A DNA stretch of 64,000 bases, from contig JAHBVI010000010.1 in assembly GCA_019637635.1 (NCBI GenBank), positions 1-64,000 of the forward strand. Reading direction: 5' to 3'. The DNA is from Anaerolineae bacterium (GTDB lineage: Bacteria; Chloroflexota; Anaerolineae; Promineifilales; Promineifilaceae). Below, piece after piece: positions 19,026-26,600 of this stretch (its first letter is position 1; the number at the start of each line of letters is the position of its first letter). A model generated the notes under the pieces. The model ran no database searches. It saw nothing but the letters and a program-made list of their open reading frames with translations, and was not told where the DNA came from. Position numbers and translations under genes: made by a program.

Positions 19026-19139
19026 TTGCGTAATTACCCAATTACCTGTTTACCCACCTACCCGAACCCACCAGACCGAATTCAGCAAGTCACGTTTGTT
19101 CAGTCTGTATACCCAAATCATAAATAGGAGATGGAAAAG

Positions 19140-22100
19140 ATGTCAGATACGCAACATGCGCAAGTGCAGGCAGTGAAAGCGGCTGCGCCTAAAAATGGGA
19201 GCAACGGCAAAAATGGCAAACATGAGTTGGAGGCCAACAGCATTTATTTTAAGGTGGCTGTGCCCGCCAGCATTGTCAAACGTGACGGCCGTATCGTCCC
19301 CTTCAACGAGCAGTTGATCCATAATGCCCTGGAACGCTGTTTTGCCAGCCTGGGGCGGGAACCCAAAACTTCCATTGACGACATTACCCACCAGGTGGTG
19401 AACGTAGTCGCCGCCAAATATGACCTGCCCACGGTGGAAGGGGTGCAGGATATTGTGGAGATGGTGCTGCAAGCCGCCGGCGAATATGAAGCCGCCAAAC
19501 ATTACATCCTCTACCGCGCCGAACATGCCAAAATCCGCGCCAAACGCCCCGTCCCGGACGAAGTGCGCGAAGCATTTGCCGCCTCTGACCAATACTTCCC
19601 CACCCAACTGCAAAAATTCCAATTTTATGACAAGTATTCGCGCTTCAATTACGAGTTAGGCCGCCGCGAAACGTGGCTGGAAACCGTGAACCGGGCGGTG
19701 GATTATTTGCGGGAATTGTCGGATTACCGGCTGCCTGCCAGCGTCTACGACCGTATCCGCCAGGGTATTCTGGAAATGAAAGTGATGCCCTCCATGCGGC
19801 TACTGGCCATGGCCGGCCCGGCAGCCCGGCGTAACAACATCGCCATCTACAACTGCTCCTACATGCCCGTAGACAGCATTGATTCCTTTGTGGAGGCGCT
19901 CATCATTTCCATGAGCGGCTGCGGCGTAGGCTTTTCCGTGGAACGGCAATATGTGGAGCAGTTCCCGCGTATTGCCCGGCAGTCTGGCAAACCGGCGCCG
20001 ACCCACGTGGTCAAAGACACCTCCGAAGGCTGGGCTGAGGCGCTGCGCACCGGCCTGACAACCTGGTTTAACGGTGAAGATGTAAAGTTTGACTTTTCTG
20101 AGGTGCGGCCGGCGGGTATGCCGCTGCGGGTGAAGGGGGGGCGCGCTTCCGGCCCGGAACCGCTGCGGCAGATGCTGGAATTTGCGCGGGGGCGGATTAT
20201 TGCCCGGCAGGGGAGTTTTTTACGGCCGTTAGACGCCCATGACATGATGTGTGCCGTCGGTAATGCCGCCGTTTCCGGCGGTGTGCGTCGCACGGCGATG
20301 ATCTCCCTCTTTGATTATGATGACCTGGAAATGCGCCACTGCAAAGATGGCGATTTCTGGCGCAACAACAGCCAGCGATGGAACGCCAACAACAGCGCCG
20401 TCTGGCCCAGCCGCGAATTGAGCCAGGCCGAAATCACCCGCTTTGTGCTGGACATGGTGGAATCGGGCCGGGGCGAGCCGGGCATCTTCAACCGGCGCGC
20501 GGCCGTGGAAAACCGCCCGGCGCGGCGGGATGTGGCTGAGTTTGGCACCAATCCGTGTGTAACGGCCGATACGTTGGTAGCGGTAGCTGATGGCCGGGGA
20601 CATGTGCCCATTGGTCAGTTGGCGGCGGATGGACAGGATGTGCCTGTTTTTTGTTTAGACAATCAGGGCAAGATTACCGTGCGCTGGCTACGCCACCCGC
20701 GTGTTACAGGAACGCAGCAAGCCGTTTATACCGTAACGCTGGATGATGGCTCGACAATAAAAGTGACGCCAAATCATAAGTTTCGCTTGAAATCAGGGGA
20801 ATACGTGGCGGCCGAAGATTTACGAGCCGGTGATAGCTTACATGTAATGACCCGGTATAAAGCCTCCATTAAGGATATTTTTGAGGAGGCCAATTCATTT
20901 TCACAGGATTATGTGTGGGTGAATAACGGCCGCCGGCAAAATCAGGCTGAGCATCGCCTGATAGCCTCTTTCCACTACAACACAGCTATCCCCTCAGGCT
21001 ACGTGGTGCATCACAAAGATTTTAACGCCAGCAACAATGCGCCCGATAATTTGGAGATTTTGTCTAAAGTTGCCCACGATGCTCTGCACGGTGAACAGAT
21101 GCGCGGTGAAAACAACCCCATGGTGCGGGCCACAACCGAATGGACAGATGAGCGGTGGGCAGATTATCGCCGGAATATGTCTGAGGCAGTGAGTGGGGAG
21201 GGAAACGGCCGTTACTCTGGCCTCAGTCACGAACAACTCAAACAACACGCCCTCAACCTGACCAGGCAGCTAGGGCGGCGGTTTTCCACTCAGGATTGGC
21301 AACAATATGCTCAAGAAAATGGACTACCCCAAACATTTAGCGTCTGGCGACAGGCTCATCTGGGTGGCGTCATTGGTCTGGCAAAGTGGGCGGCGCTGAC
21401 AATGGATTTTGATCACATAGACGCCGATCCCCGTGTCGTGCAGTCATATCAGTGGTACAGCGAGATGGGTTATGACTGTGAAATTATCGAAGGCAAGCTC
21501 TACATTCAAAAGCAATGTGAAGTTTGTGGCAAACCGTTCTTAGTTTCTAGCAAACAGCGTGAAGCGGGCGTGTGTGGTCATAGTTGCGCTTCTAAACAAC
21601 AGTGGGAACGTAACCGTGAAAATTTATTGGCCGCCCTCCATGAATCCCACAACGAGCGAAAGACGCAAGTACAAAACGCCCAATTGGAAATTTACACTGC
21701 GCTCAAATATCAGTTAGGGCGCAGGCCATGGAAGAAAGAATGGGTAGCTGCATGCAAGAATCAGGGCATTAGCACAGAAATATCACGAACCAGTTCACCC
21801 TTTCGCTCTTATACAGAGTTGGAAGAGGCAGCCGGCATGTACAATCATCGCGTGGTTTCGGTTGAATTTGCCGGTTATGAGGACGTTTACAACGGTACAG
21901 TAGATGAATTCCACAATTTCTTTGTAGGTGGATGGGAAAGTCAGACCCGGCACGGTAAAGAAAAATGGACGTACATCAATAACGCCCAGTGTGGCGAGAT
22001 TATTTTACGGCCGTATCAATTCTGCAACCTCACCAGCGCCATTGCCCGCGCCGACGACGATTACGAAAGTCTGCGCGATAAGGTGGAACTGGCGGCCATC

Positions 22101-22901
22101 ATCGGCACCATCCAATCCATGGCCACTTACTTCCCCGGCCTGCGCCGCGAATGGCAGAAAAACTGCGAAGAGGAACGACTGCTGGGCGTAGACCTGAATG
22201 GACAGATGGATAGTCTGACGGTGCAGGAGCCGGACGTACAGGCGCGCTTACGCGAAGTGGCCGTGGAAACCAACCGCGTGTATGCTGACCTGTTGGGCAT
22301 CAAACAATCGGCTTCGGTGACGTGCGTCAAACCATCGGGCAATTCATCGCAGTTGGTGGATTCGTCGTCCGGGCTACATGCGCGGTGGGCGCCTTATTAC
22401 ATCCGCAATGTGCGGGTGGGCGCCCATTCGCCGGTGTTCAAAGTGCTGCAAGATGCGGGTGTGCCCATGGACCCAGAAAATGGGCAAACACGGGATTCGG
22501 CCATTACCTGGGTGGTGCATTTCCCGGTGAAGTCGCCGGCTACGGCCGTGACCCGCAACGACCGCACCGCCCTGGAACAATGCGAGTTCTGGCTGCAAAA
22601 CAAAATCAACTATACCGAACACAACCCCAGCGTCACCATCACCTACCAGCCCAACGAAGTGCTGGACATCATCCGCTGGGTGTGGGAACACCAGGACAAA
22701 ATTGGCGGCATGGCCTTCCTGCCCGCCTTTGACGCCCAATATGACCAGATGCCCTACGTGGAAATTGACCAGGAAGAATATGAACAGTTAGTAGCTAAAT
22801 TCCCGGAGATAGATTTTTCCAAGATTTACCGATATGAGGAAGAAGATTTGACCACCGCTGCCCAAGAACTGGCCTGCCTGGCCGGTAACTGTGATATATA
22901 G
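19140..22901 (+). CDS. nrdJ: class II (adenosylcobalamin-dependent) ribonucleotide reductase with intein
   Basis: 1253 residues, of which 478 are an intein; the spliced enzyme would be about 775. The start is taken at ATG 19140 because AGGAG (19126-19130) abuts the in-frame ATG at 19131 but is 9 nt from 19140. An N-terminal ATP cone (VKRDGRIVPFNEQLI) is followed by the catalytic barrel with NCSYMPVDSIDSF and SGCGVGFSVER, the radical-site NP|CGEIILRPYQFCNL split by the intein, and PSGNSSQLVDSSSG. The C-terminal redox cysteines are CLAGNCDI. It reduces ribonucleotides without oxygen dependence. No NrdB is present. Assignment to class II is from motif pattern and the missing small subunit. Confidence 0.94.
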   Translation: MSDTQHAQVQAVKAAAPKNGSNGKNGKHELEANSIYFKVAVPASIVKRDGRIVPFNEQLIHNALERCFASLGREPKTSIDDITHQVVNVVAAKYDLPTVEGVQDIVEMVLQAAGEYEAAKHYILYRAEHAKIRAKRPVPDEVREAFAASDQYFPTQLQKFQFYDKYSRFNYELGRRETWLETVNRAVDYLRELSDYRLPASVYDRIRQGILEMKVMPSMRLLAMAGPAARRNNIAIYNCSYMPVDSIDSFVEALIISMSGCGVGFSVERQYVEQFPRIARQSGKPAPTHVVKDTSEGWAEALRTGLTTWFNGEDVKFDFSEVRPAGMPLRVKGGRASGPEPLRQMLEFARGRIIARQGSFLRPLDAHDMMCAVGNAAVSGGVRRTAMISLFDYDDLEMRHCKDGDFWRNNSQRWNANNSAVWPSRELSQAEITRFVLDMVESGRGEPGIFNRRAAVENRPARRDVAEFGTNPCVTADTLVAVADGRGHVPIGQLAADGQDVPVFCLDNQGKITVRWLRHPRVTGTQQAVYTVTLDDGSTIKVTPNHKFRLKSGEYVAAEDLRAGDSLHVMTRYKASIKDIFEEANSFSQDYVWVNNGRRQNQAEHRLIASFHYNTAIPSGYVVHHKDFNASNNAPDNLEILSKVAHDALHGEQMRGENNPMVRATTEWTDERWADYRRNMSEAVSGEGNGRYSGLSHEQLKQHALNLTRQLGRRFSTQDWQQYAQENGLPQTFSVWRQAHLGGVIGLAKWAALTMDFDHIDADPRVVQSYQWYSEMGYDCEIIEGKLYIQKQCEVCGKPFLVSSKQREAGVCGHSCASKQQWERNRENLLAALHESHNERKTQVQNAQLEIYTALKYQLGRRPWKKEWVAACKNQGISTEISRTSSPFRSYTELEEAAGMYNHRVVSVEFAGYEDVYNGTVDEFHNFFVGGWESQTRHGKEKWTYINNAQCGEIILRPYQFCNLTSAIARADDDYESLRDKVELAAIIGTIQSMATYFPGLRREWQKNCEEERLLGVDLNGQMDSLTVQEPDVQARLREVAVETNRVYADLLGIKQSASVTCVKPSGNSSQLVDSSSGLHARWAPYYIRNVRVGAHSPVFKVLQDAGVPMDPENGQTRDSAITWVVHFPVKSPATAVTRNDRTALEQCEFWLQNKINYTEHNPSVTITYQPNEVLDIIRWVWEHQDKIGGMAFLPAFDAQYDQMPYVEIDQEEYEQLVAKFPEIDFSKIYRYEEEDLTTAAQELACLAGNCDI
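20556..21989 (+). mobile_element. intein with HNH homing endonuclease inside nrdJ
   Basis: 478 residues. Block A begins with Cys (CVTADTLVAV) and block B is VTPNHKFRL. An HNH domain (SGYVVHHKDFNASNNAPDN) follows at about 21000-21050, then a NUMOD-like GENNPMV, a four-Cys zinc motif (CEVCGKPF...CGHSC) and block F (YNGTVDEFHNFFVGG). The insertion point is between Pro and Cys of NPCGEI, so the +1 residue is the thiyl-radical cysteine. The intein ends in AAC GCC CAG: a terminal Gln and a penultimate Ala, instead of the usual His-Asn. Two related segments (LGRRFSTQDW and LGRRPWKKEW) look like repeated DNA-binding units. Confidence 0.92.
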
Positions 22902-22922: not shown

Positions 22923-22965
22923 GTAGTAACGGCTTCAGCCGGAAACCGGCTGAAGCCGTTACTAC
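22923..22965. repeat. GTAGTAACGGCTTCAGCCGG perfect hairpin
   Basis: A perfect 20-bp stem (22923-22942 with 22946-22965) with loop AAA lies 21 bp after the nrdJ stop. No T-run follows, so it looks like an interspersed hairpin more than a classical terminator. Confidence 0.85.
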
Positions 22966-23257
22966 ATGCCAGTCGCTTTTCTTTTGCCCTGAAATAGCCA
23001 GTGATTTTGTAAGCTATCTGGCATAAAAAGTAGCAGTATCATCAGGTTGACACTTTCCGACAACTTAAAGATAATTATTTACAAACTTTTTATATTTTGT
23101 GTGTGCCCTCATTTTGGAATGTTCAAGCTAATTTAACAGCCAGAGATAGAGGTTCGCTAATCTTGCTTGAGTATGCCTATCTTCACCGATTCCCCAGGCA
23201 CAAGGCGCACATCATAATTCATCCTTCATAATTCATCATTTTCAGAGGAGAAAGGGT
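22966..23257. other. AT-rich leader region of the small peptide gene
   Basis: Apart from the promoter at 23047 I see no gene. The segment 23070-23215 is clearly more AT-rich than its surroundings, and the last 40 bp contain the ATAATTCATC words seen before other genes here. Confidence 0.5.
23047..23075 (+). promoter_or_regulatory. strong sigma70-type promoter (TTGACA-17-GATAAT)
   Basis: A consensus -35 TTGACA (23047-23052) and GATAAT (23070-23075) are separated by 17 bp. It is the best promoter in the window and points at the 58-codon gene, giving a leader of about 175 nt. Confidence 0.75.
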
Positions 23258-23434
23258 ATGAAAAATGCATCAGGGCATGACGACCAGGCAACGAGTGTGG
23301 ACGGCCGTACCCCATATGAACCGCCTGCAATCATTTACAAAGGCAAAATCAGTACCCGTGCCGGTTCCCCAGTTCCCAGACCAGATGGCAGTACATCCGT
23401 AGTTGACCCGGCCGATCTATTTGGTGACGATTAG
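23258..23434 (+). CDS. 58-residue peptide, lasso/RiPP-precursor-like
   Basis: The start ATG at 23258 has an excellent SD (AGAGGAGAAAGG). The peptide has an acidic hydrophilic N-terminus, then YEPPAIIYKGKI. The spacing Y-x2-P-x-I-x3-G equals the leader motif by which lasso-peptide precursors bind their RRE/PqqD-like partner (usually Y-x2-P-x-L-x3-G). A C-terminal part starts near RAGSPVP and ends in DLFGDD. No maturation genes (RRE, B2 protease, C cyclase) are in the window, so it would be an orphan precursor. It has its own promoter and terminator. Alternative: an unrelated small acidic protein. The gene itself is well supported; the RiPP reading is inference. Confidence 0.7.
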   Translation: MKNASGHDDQATSVDGRTPYEPPAIIYKGKISTRAGSPVPRPDGSTSVVDPADLFGDD

Positions 23435-23481
23435 CGATTAGCCCCTCTCTTTGTTACCATCTTTGTCTCATTAGATGTATT

Positions 23482-23512
23482 AAAAACCTGCCCGTAGGCA
23501 GGTTCTTTTTTA
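23482..23512. terminator. bidirectional intrinsic terminator
   Basis: The stem AACCTGCC/GGCAGGTT (23485-23492 with 23497-23504), loop CGTA, is followed by CTTTTTTA and preceded by AAAA. It ends the peptide transcript on plus and the phospholipase-like gene on minus, whose stop codon abuts it. Confidence 0.85.
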
Positions 23513-25966
23513 TCAGGGAAGCACGCCAGGGTTGGGAAAGGGCCATTCCCGGAAATCAATCAGACAATTGTCGCGGTCAATCCAATAGGGGTATCGTTCC
23601 AGGCTGACGTTGGAGGTGGAGACCGGGTTACAGCTAACAACGCCGGGAAAAACCCCCGCGCCATAGGCGATGGCGTCCACGACCTGATCGTGGGCGTCGC
23701 GTAAAATCACTTCATCGCCACTGTTTCCCAACCGCAAGAATGTATTGGGATCACCCCAGGCCGGATCATCAATCATGTTCGGAACGAGGGGATCGGTATC
23801 CAGAATTTCAAAGTCTGGGTAGAAGCCGTATTCCGCAAAAAATGCGGTCGCGGCGGTAGCAATTACCAGGGTGTGCCCGGGCGCCAGGATGACGCCGGCC
23901 GGAAAACGGCGCACATCTTCAAAATCGGTAGGGTGAACCGCATCACCCAGGCTGAAATTGCTGAGGTCAACCGGATGCCCGGTGGGGTTCACCAGTTCAA
24001 TAAATTCTGTATCATCTTGCGCGCCACGGGGATCATATAACAGTTCGCTGATGAGTACATAACGAGCCGGAGGGATGTAATCGCGCATGACAAGGGGCAT
24101 GTGCAGCCGGTAGCCCCAATCACCCCAAAACATTTCGGCCAGGAGGGCATACGCGGCGTCTGATTGCACTTGTAGGGCCAGTTCACGATTGCCTTTGCTG
24201 GAAAGTTCGGAGCCATTGAGACTGCCGACGTGGATGGCGCCACGGCCGTTGGCCCACACCAACACCATCTTGTTATGAATCCCCAAACCGGCAGGGTTGC
24301 CCGTTTTGCACACCATATCCAATGATTCTACCAGAGCCAGATTGTTGACATAAACACAGGTGGCGCTGTTGCTGATGGGGCTGGTGGCGCTGTCAAAAAA
24401 GCTGTCCAATAGCAACCGCACCACCGCACCGCGCCGGGCAGCGGCGATGTAGGCTTCCAGCCGGGGGTTGGGGTTGTCTACCGGATTAGAGAGCGAAGAA
24501 CCCCAATACGGCCGTTCCTCCAACTGCTGCACCAACACCATACCCCCGGCCCCGGCCTGGTTAACCATGCCCAATAAAGCATCGTCGCGGCGCAAGCTGT
24601 TTTCCGGCGACTGCACCAGTTCAAAGGCAAAGGTACCGTGTACGGCCGTTGGCGCTGCAAACCGCACCGGATAACTGATGCCACCGGTGACCGTCACCGG
24701 CACAAAACCGGGCGGCGGCGCGCCAATCAGATGTGTACCGGTGATGTCTACGTGGGCGGCGGGGTCAAAATCGCGGTTGAAGATGGTTTGCACGTGGCTG
24801 ACTACGCCGGGCGCGTCGGTGATCAGCGCCACGCCGCGCCGGCCCCAGGTGCCATCGCTCTTGTCGTCATCAGGCAGGCTGCGGGGGCTGAGGTTTTCGC
24901 TGCTGATGACCACTCGTTGCCCATCAATCAAGATGAATTTGGCGTGCAGATAGGTGTAGCGATCATAAATCTGCTGGCTGCTTTCGTTAAACATGAACCA
25001 GCAGTACGCGCCCGCGTTGGCTAACAGTTGGCAGATATACCGCTCCTGATCGGTGACGCCGCCAGCCGGTTCGGCTTCCATGAGAATGGTAACAGCCACG
25101 CCCCGCTGCCGCGCCGCCAGTAATGCCTCGGCAACGGCCACATTTTCAAAGGTCTGGGTTTCAATCTGAATGCTGGTTTGGGCGCGGGCAATCTGGTCAA
25201 CGATGGCCTGGTAGGCATTATCGGGGGCGATGGCAATGGTGAGTACGGCCGTTTCCGTTATCTGCGCCGTCCAGAAAAACTCATCTAAATCCCAACCGGG
25301 AAACAACACTTTACGGCCGTTGCTGACATCTGTATTCCCCTGCGCCCAATCGGCGGCGCTGTTACTGTCCGGCAGCGGCAGCCCGGTCTGCTGGTCGCGG
25401 GCGCGGTAGAGAATCTGGCCGTTGCTGCTAAAGCTGGTGTTAGGCGCATACGGCTGCACGGCGGGGCCAACCCAGGCAGCGCCACACTGCTCGTTGGGGT
25501 TGCTTTCATACGCCAGACAATCTATGAGTGTATTGGCCGCATCGCGCAGCATCACCTGGTCGCCGGTATTGGCCAGGCTGGGCCAGGAACCGCCCAGATT
25601 GGGCACCCCGGGCAGGGTATCATTGCGTTCAAAATCGGGTGGGAAGCCAAACTGGCGCTGAAAGGCGGCGCCATCCTTGGCCAGCCAGATCGCCTGACCG
25701 GGGTCGAGGGTGGTGGTAAAGGGGATAACGGCCGTAGAACTTTCGCCATCATTCAACTGCCAGCCAGAAATATCCACCACCTGCGCGCCCACATTGCGAA
25801 TGCGCACCGCCTCATCCGCATCGCTCAACTCATAGCCATCGTACAGCACGGCGTCAATGAGTACCGTCGAGCTACGTGCTGACGCCCTGGGCACAGCCAG
25901 CAACACCGCCAAAAGCAGCAAAGGCAAAATAACAGCGGTTGTTAACCCCAACAGTCGCTTGAACAT
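23513..25966 (-). CDS. secreted phospholipase D-like protein with two lamin-tail domains
   Basis: 817 residues from the ATG at 25966, preceded by GGTGGAGGG; the longer frame would translate the upstream repeat (PITDYRLP). A signal peptide spans about 1-30 (hydrophobic, then ASA). Lamin-tail domain 1 lies at about 30-150 (VRIRNVGAQVVDISGWQLND). PLD half 1 has an intact HKD motif HAKFILID...SSEN near residue 321. PLD half 2 has HNKMVLVW...GSLN, where the expected Asp is Trp. Lamin-tail domain 2 is at about 615-790 (EFIELVNPTGHPVDLSNFSL). Probably an exported phosphodiesterase or nuclease; one catalytic half looks weakened. Substrate unknown. Confidence 0.85.
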   Translation of the reverse strand: MFKRLLGLTTAVILPLLLLAVLLAVPRASARSSTVLIDAVLYDGYELSDADEAVRIRNVGAQVVDISGWQLNDGESSTAVIPFTTTLDPGQAIWLAKDGAAFQRQFGFPPDFERNDTLPGVPNLGGSWPSLANTGDQVMLRDAANTLIDCLAYESNPNEQCGAAWVGPAVQPYAPNTSFSSNGQILYRARDQQTGLPLPDSNSAADWAQGNTDVSNGRKVLFPGWDLDEFFWTAQITETAVLTIAIAPDNAYQAIVDQIARAQTSIQIETQTFENVAVAEALLAARQRGVAVTILMEAEPAGGVTDQERYICQLLANAGAYCWFMFNESSQQIYDRYTYLHAKFILIDGQRVVISSENLSPRSLPDDDKSDGTWGRRGVALITDAPGVVSHVQTIFNRDFDPAAHVDITGTHLIGAPPPGFVPVTVTGGISYPVRFAAPTAVHGTFAFELVQSPENSLRRDDALLGMVNQAGAGGMVLVQQLEERPYWGSSLSNPVDNPNPRLEAYIAAARRGAVVRLLLDSFFDSATSPISNSATCVYVNNLALVESLDMVCKTGNPAGLGIHNKMVLVWANGRGAIHVGSLNGSELSSKGNRELALQVQSDAAYALLAEMFWGDWGYRLHMPLVMRDYIPPARYVLISELLYDPRGAQDDTEFIELVNPTGHPVDLSNFSLGDAVHPTDFEDVRRFPAGVILAPGHTLVIATAATAFFAEYGFYPDFEILDTDPLVPNMIDDPAWGDPNTFLRLGNSGDEVILRDAHDQVVDAIAYGAGVFPGVVSCNPVSTSNVSLERYPYWIDRDNCLIDFREWPFPNPGVLP

Positions 25967-26600
25967 GACACCCTCCACCTGTGTTGCCGGTAAACGGTAA
26001 TCGGTTATCGGTAATCTGAAACCCGGCATTGGACATCAGATCGCGGTTCACGGATTACAATTCACGGCCAACACACTACTCGAAATGTATAACAACTTAC
26101 GGTTTCCGGTACAAGGCTGAATTATAACGGCCTCTTCGCCATTCTCAAACATGAATTTCCGCAATTCGAATCACGGGCATTGTCCAAAAACGACTTGTTC
26201 ATCTTAATAAATCTGGCGTCAAACTGTCATTCCAAAAGCCGGTGCTGAGCTTGTCGAAGTATCTTCCGAGGAATCTTTTATCGGGCAAACAGAAAGATGC
26301 CTCGCTCCGAAGACTACGCTCGGAATGACACGGTTCTATTGCCGAAACTAATTTTTGATTTTCACATTCTGCACCAGTAAAGGCAAAACCAGCCTTCACC
26401 CCCTCACCTGTTCACCCCCACATCTCCCCTTTGCCAGAAAATTGCCAGACAATTACCCGTTCCGGTGCGGGTAGAATATGATATAAACAACCTATCAGCC
26501 GCCGGTTTGGGGGTTGGACAATCGGGGGGGATGCCCTGGTTTCCTTGATAAAGATTCATAATTCATCCTTCATAATTCCTAATTCCGAAGGAGACGGTTT
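25967..26600. other. non-coding region between divergent genes
   Basis: This gap holds degenerate repeat words of family D (CGGTAATCGGTTATCGGTAATC near 25992-26013; GGTTCACGGATTACAATTCACGG near 26044-26067), an inverted-repeat-bounded element at 26225-26330 and family C words (ATAATTCATCCTTCATAATTCC) at 26558-26583. No convincing gene. Both flanking genes must be transcribed outward from here, but I could not fix a promoter with good spacing. Confidence 0.55.
26225..26330. repeat. small inverted-repeat-bounded element
   Basis: TGTCATTCC at 26225-26233 and GGAATGACA at 26322-26330 bound 106 bp that include GGTGCTGAGCTTGTCGAAG and GCCTCGCTCCGAAGACTACG. Words of this type recur in many bacterial genomes as interspersed repeats (recollection, not searched). 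No coding capacity; MITE- or REP-like. Confidence 0.6.

Follow-up and report, generated by a model that had tools for sequence, protein, structure and literature searches.

The open reading frame of 58 codons analyzed in this work probably codes for a precursor peptide of the RiPP-like, RRE-dependent kind, which would be expressed from its own promoter, matured in trans and, in its design, resemble the linear polyphosphorylated peptides (LPP). The frame lies on the forward strand of a stretch of 64,000 nucleotides (hereafter the window) from contig JAHBVI010000010.1 of an Anaerolineae genome.

A Conserved Transcription Unit

The peptide gene (positions 23258 to 23434, + strand, from the ATG start to the stop codon, included) is preceded by a sigma-70-type promoter, TTGACA-17-GATAAT (23047 to 23075, +; 11 of 12 matches), and by the Shine-Dalgarno sequence AGGAG (23246 to 23250, +), placed 7 nt 5' of the ATG. 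It is followed by an intrinsic terminator (23485 to 23514, +), whose stem AACCTGCC/GGCAGGTT (23485 to 23504) runs into the T-run CTTTTTT and which is the sole terminator-like site of the region. In a pattern scan of 5 kb this promoter was the best of the 5 sites found, against 3.9 expected, so that the scan by itself is weak evidence. When the window is aligned with four sister species, the two promoter hexamers and the flanks immediately around them (GGTTGACAC, CTTAAAGATAATT), the Shine-Dalgarno AGGAG and the two arms of the terminator stem show no change in any of the five, whereas the stretches between these control elements vary in length and letters. Since the control elements are invariant while the intervening sequence drifts, the transcription unit is real, and the complete unit that an earlier note on this DNA had described (promoter, Shine-Dalgarno sequence, 58-codon frame and terminator) is kept in the sister species.

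The codon differences in the frame among the sister species fall mainly in the third position (e.g., 4/5/18), and dN/dS was 0.06-0.21 in all pairs except the closest one, where changes are few. Judged by its homologues and by this purifying selection, the frame is a conserved coding gene, and a chance frame is ruled out by conservation and dN/dS. Two further candidates were rejected: an RNA element in place of a peptide, since no Rfam family reached its gathering score in the window, and a phage origin, since there was no phage match.

The Peptide Family and Its Docking Motif

The peptide has 75 distinct homologues in Anaerolineae, which align without gaps along the stretch from the motif Tyr to the Gly. 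Counting from this Tyr as position 0, Y0, P3, A15 and G16 are invariant in 75/75, I, V or M fills position 5 in all of them, and position 11 is L, I or V; a Gly at +9 is present in 40 of the 75. At position 14, 53/75 homologues have Arg and the rest Q, F, H or V; S or T occupies position 17 in 72/75, and P position 18 in 65/75. Within the window's own taxonomic family both Arg34 and the tail (V)DPADLFG are conserved. The Y-x2-P-x-I-x3-G spacing to which the earlier note had drawn attention is thus borne out by the homologues, and Y20-x2-P23-x-I25-x3-G29 (23315 to 23344, +) is by sequence an RRE-docking motif, its Tyr and Pro corresponding to the known YxxP RRE motif (PMC13381572). A subfamily (in family f16; loci L184, L185, L188, L189 and L191) has LKQFAGSPLG in place of LExRAGSP, with Gln-Phe before the junction.

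All five genomes of the same genus carry a homologue (69-93% identity), and so do most genera of the window's family. A profile built from 30 sequences detected the peptide family in 49 of the 249 class genomes; in a phylum-wide sample 2 of 201 genomes were positive, one being the window's own and both belonging to the same class. The search for further copies and for conservation of the frame that the earlier note had proposed thus returned many homologues and a single copy in the window's genome. No Pfam or NCBIfam model matches the 58-residue peptide, which excludes a known small protein of these collections, and a PDB search with the peptide profile returned nothing. The titles and abstracts searched contained no description of the peptide system. 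The peptide founds a conserved family in Anaerolineae, apparently undescribed so far, in agreement with the new small-protein family that had been one of the two original proposals.

Loci of Distant Relatives and Partner Genes

In distant families the peptide gene is embedded in an operon-like locus, which typically comprises an FN3-like membrane protein, an HprK-like kinase, a PqqD/RRE protein, the peptide, a C25 peptidase, an archaeal-type signal peptidase I (SpI), an FN3-TM protein and a second C25 peptidase. The partner families checked were PF05402, PF01364, PF14907, PF00717 and the TIGR02228-type signal peptidase. A PqqD/RRE gene lay within the retrieved stretch in 18 of 40 distant loci, against 0.12 expected from the RRE density of the class genomes, and several of the remaining loci are short contigs. 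HprK, SpI and C25 share the peptide/RRE loci of relatives: the HprK-like kinase is present in many of them, the peptidases are linked to the peptide in most complete distant loci, and the NTP transferase PF14907 occurs in locus L097. Among 35 genomes of the window's family, presence of the peptide is associated with that of a linked RRE-C25 pair (18/8 vs 1/8, Fisher p = 0.005), a statistic that ignores phylogeny and in which many misses are fragmented assemblies.

In the window's genome the parts are scattered. One stand-alone RRE gene, on contig C211, adjoins two C25 peptidases, both of which keep the GHG...C catalytic residues (His, Cys) and have the PorU sortase as best NCBIfam match (206 and 160 bits, cut-off 420); a further PF05402 match lies within a 435-aa frame. 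The signal peptidase, on contig C9, adjoins nadD and obg and retains the triad Ser31, His68 and Asp93; it scores 41.5 bits as an archaeal-type signal peptidase I, below the curated cut-off, and is unlinked to the peptide, as is the single NTP_transf_5 gene (C242). A search for the HprK-like kinase gave no full match in this genome, where a weak and unlinked 38-bit match lies on C275. Neither this genome nor the sister loci hold a second precursor with the family motif beside the RRE. Because of this unlinked arrangement, the pairing of peptide and RRE rests on homology and co-occurrence. The idea of an orphan RiPP precursor served in trans, the other of the two original proposals, is well supported in that the motif adjoins an RRE/SpI/C25 operon in relatives and the window's genome possesses these components at separate sites.

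In one genome of the window's own family (locus L182, G012:C23, 10728 to 13196), a full locus adjoins obg. A gene for a radical SAM/SPASM protein is placed there between those of the RRE and the peptide, and the core of its peptide contains Cys (AGVCDTNIGGKEDSGC...). Its product is possibly sactipeptide-like, judging from these genes, and the presence of the radical SAM/SPASM gene together with a Cys-containing core supports the idea of a leader followed by a variable core. In two other loci (L221 and L222; G005:C69 and G006:C67) a third C25 peptidase adjoins the signal peptidase in the obg/nadD region and no RRE accompanies it, which looks like what is left of a full locus after its break-up. 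Given the full locus of L182 and the position of the C25 gene beside the signal peptidase in G005 and G006, the full locus presumably once stood beside obg and was broken up.

The RRE Protein

The C211 RRE is a PF05402 match. Its AlphaFold model (pLDDT 90) fits TbiB1 and TfuB1, two lasso RREs with bound leader, with an rmsd of 1.0-1.5 and a TM of 0.81-0.92, depending on whether query or target length is used. The first PDB matches of the profile of C25-linked RREs were TbiB1 (7.6e-17), LppB (4.2e-11), PbaB1 (2e-9) and TfuB1 (2.9e-8), the comparison with LppB being by profile only. Two residues of LppB have counterparts in the RRE alignment: Asp70, by which the leader Tyr is held, in the nearly invariant D77, and Phe74, which divides the pocket, in the invariant F81. 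A point against the RRE-dependent reading is that the RREs of the window's own genus carry Ser at a place occupied by Asn in LppB and in most peptide-linked relatives. In the RRE tree, which is based on few alignment columns, the lasso-linked RREs fall on one side of a branch with support 99/97, and the RRE of the window's genome is placed apart from them, with the peptide- and C25-linked ones.

Proposed Maturation

According to the preferred reading, the C211 RRE would grip Tyr20, Pro23 and Ile25 of the leader and present the peptide to a signal-peptidase-like enzyme, which would cut at ...S-T-R-A|G-S-P; the linear core of 23 residues, GSPVPRPDGSTSVVDPADLFGDD, would then be exported. The predicted leader thus comprises residues 1-35 (23258 to 23362, +), ending with T33-R34-A35 in a putative signal-peptidase-like -3/-1 site, and the predicted core residues 36-58 (23363 to 23431, +). 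In the homologues, the residue at -1 is A in 75/75 and the one at -3 is T, V, A, I or S in 69/75. A cut after A35 is predicted because the residue at +15 from the Tyr is the invariant Ala, the pattern at -3 fits the classic -3/-1 rule of signal peptidases, and LPP precursors are cut at the same distance. Cleavage after Ala is ranked above cleavage after Gly (the lasso spacing) and after Arg (the gingipain spacing). The AGSP that the earlier note had assigned to a core-like region does contain an invariant A and G; its placement has to be revised, since it would straddle the junction of leader and core.

In genomes with an HprK-like kinase, Ser2 of the core would be the likely phosphorylation site. 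Finally, secreted PorU/gingipain-like C25 peptidases might work at the cell surface, either on the exported core or together with it, in surroundings of capsule or exopolysaccharide; this step is, with the biological role, the least certain one, and we infer both C25's function and the end product. The conservation of the core is unusually high for a RiPP, which counts against the proposed maturation.

A more novel possibility, less likely than not, is that of a separate Anaerolineae RiPP-like class. Here the RRE and the signal peptidase would mature a short peptide whose core is conserved instead of variable, and this peptide would then serve, together with the PorU-like C25 peptidases, in surface anchoring or sorting in connection with exopolysaccharide and not as an antibiotic.

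The C25 peptidase might instead be the leader peptidase, cutting gingipain-R style after Arg34 (S-T-R|A-G-S-P) in place of SpI. C25 is indeed the most constant partner, the RRE and C25 genes are adjacent in the window's genome with SpI elsewhere, both C25 proteins retain His and Cys, and Arg34 is conserved throughout the window's family. However, across the class the invariant element is A-G and not the Arg before it, which is replaced in the other homologues; the PorU sortase, the best NCBIfam match, lies outside the membrane, whereas RREs are cytosolic; and LPP maturation uses SpI. We regard this possibility as rather unlikely.

Less probable still is a small protein that is never cleaved. 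Its working part would be the tail VDPADLFGD, and through the RRE-like motif it would be anchored to the RRE, serving the C25/exopolysaccharide locus as adaptor or regulator. In favour of this, conservation of the tail is far above that of typical RiPP cores, and the gene occurs once in the window's genome, under a promoter of its own; but the invariant A-G junction carries a signal-peptidase-like -3/-1 pattern, peptidases accompany the peptide in most complete distant loci, and the variant with radical SAM has an altered core.

A lasso precursor, with B2 and cyclase encoded elsewhere or lost from the assembly, has only the faintest chance of being correct, even though the YxxPx[IV] leader has the lasso spacing, the core reads G1...D8 in six same-genus peptides and B2 genes are present in other genera of the family: the candidate was rejected on the absent B2, the B2 co-occurrence, the residue at -2 and the RRE clade. 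The criteria applied were B2 (PF13471), Thr (rarely Ile/Val) at -2, Asp/Glu at core position 7, 8 or 9, and cyclase C. No significant B2 was found in the window's genome, whose assembly is estimated to be 100% complete, none at cut-off in the same genus and none in the peptide-bearing loci examined, and among the 35 family genomes its presence does not track the peptide (p = 0.24). The three Asn-synthase-family proteins of the window's genome lie near neither the peptide nor the RRE. If the peptides are spaced as lasso leaders, -2 is Ala in 75/75 and Thr in 0/75, and an acid occurs at any single ring position in 4-23 of the 75, none being conserved family-wide. What the peptide has in common with lasso peptides (paeninodin, Bsf, actinobacterial types) is the docking motif of the leader and the RRE fold; unlike them, it has no B2 beside any relative, no cyclase was seen in the loci read, and its RRE falls in a different clade. 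Of the lasso-like character claimed for the leader only the RRE-docking motif therefore stands, and the search for RRE and B2 genes that had been proposed along with it yielded the former alone.

Comparison with Known Systems

LPP precursors have the pattern YxxPxVLxHQxIxFET|xxS (Popov et al. 2026, PMC13381572). Their RRE presents the precursor to an archaeal-type signal peptidase, whose cleavage site follows the Thr at +15 (counted from the Tyr), an HprK-like kinase phosphorylates Ser3 of the core, and the group is stated to be restricted to Bacillota (PMC13381572). The system described here shares with LPP the stand-alone RRE, a YxxPx[V/I/L]-type leader, a predicted cut equally far from the Tyr and, in loci across the class, the HprK-like kinase, NTP_transf_5 and archaeal-type signal peptidase, in an exopolysaccharide setting and without macrolactam cyclase or B2. 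It differs in its Anaerolineae host, in two extra PorU/gingipain-like C25 peptidases and FN3-like membrane proteins, in the second half of the leader (YEGxLExRAG vs HQxIxFETxxS) and, in the window's genome, in an unlinked precursor and the lack of a full HprK-like kinase. Since this kinase is missing, the hallmark modification of LPP may not occur in this genome; for the same reason we file the system, which on its genes corresponds to LPP in part, as LPP-like in its working and not as proven LPP.

The C211 peptidases resemble PorU (the type IX sortase) and the gingipains of family C25, matching PorU models below cut-off with His and Cys kept; unlike these, C25 proteins of the C211 type are linked to an RRE and to exopolysaccharide-type genes, and no further type IX component was noticed in the loci read. 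A pair of PqqD-like and HprK-related proteins is also found in the HPr-rel-A and SynChlorMet cassettes (TIGR04352/TIGR04353, TIGR04248-TIGR04251), from which the present system differs in that every match is below the curated cut-offs. Literature searches for gingipain with PqqD and for peptidase C25 with RiPP, whose coverage left out most subscription journals, returned nothing.

If the proposed maturation is correct, RRE-guided non-lasso linear peptides would extend beyond Bacillota into a large and mostly uncultured class, and peptidase family C25 would be added to them, no earlier link of this family to RREs or RiPPs having been found in the literature searched. It would also follow that the precursor of a RiPP can move out of its cluster and remain conserved by itself across the span of a bacterial family; having left its cluster, such a precursor would be missed by cluster-based genome mining. 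The high conservation of the core points to a function within the cell's own economy and not in chemical warfare, and the question of the function of LPP-like peptides thereby becomes testable.

Genomic Neighbourhood

In most genera of the window's family examined, the peptide gene is solitary between nrdR-nrdJ and a convergent gene, and the statement that no modifying enzymes are near is correct for the window's genome. The convergent gene (23513 to 26029, - strand) codes for a lamin-tail (LTD) and PLD-like secreted protein (Pfam LTD, PLDc_2) and adjoins the peptide gene tail-to-tail in nearly all family genomes examined; in loci L103 and L107 the upstream neighbour differs and the LTD protein is retained. 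Judging from this synteny, the LTD/PLD protein is a possible partner or substrate. Another LTD protein was observed inside the RRE-C25 locus L097.

The upstream neighbour is an nrdJ-type ribonucleotide reductase (19131 to 22901, +), a synteny marker outside the system. It has 1256 aa in the window and in BJ8 (L039) and about 776-778 aa in CHL1 and CFX4; the extra internal segment resembles an intein with endonuclease, and its presence differs among the sister species. A perfect inverted repeat of 20 bp, GTAGTAACGGCTTCAGCCGG, whose loop has 3 nt (22923 to 22965), lies 3' of nrdJ; it shows small changes in CFX8 and CFX4 and is altered in CHL1.
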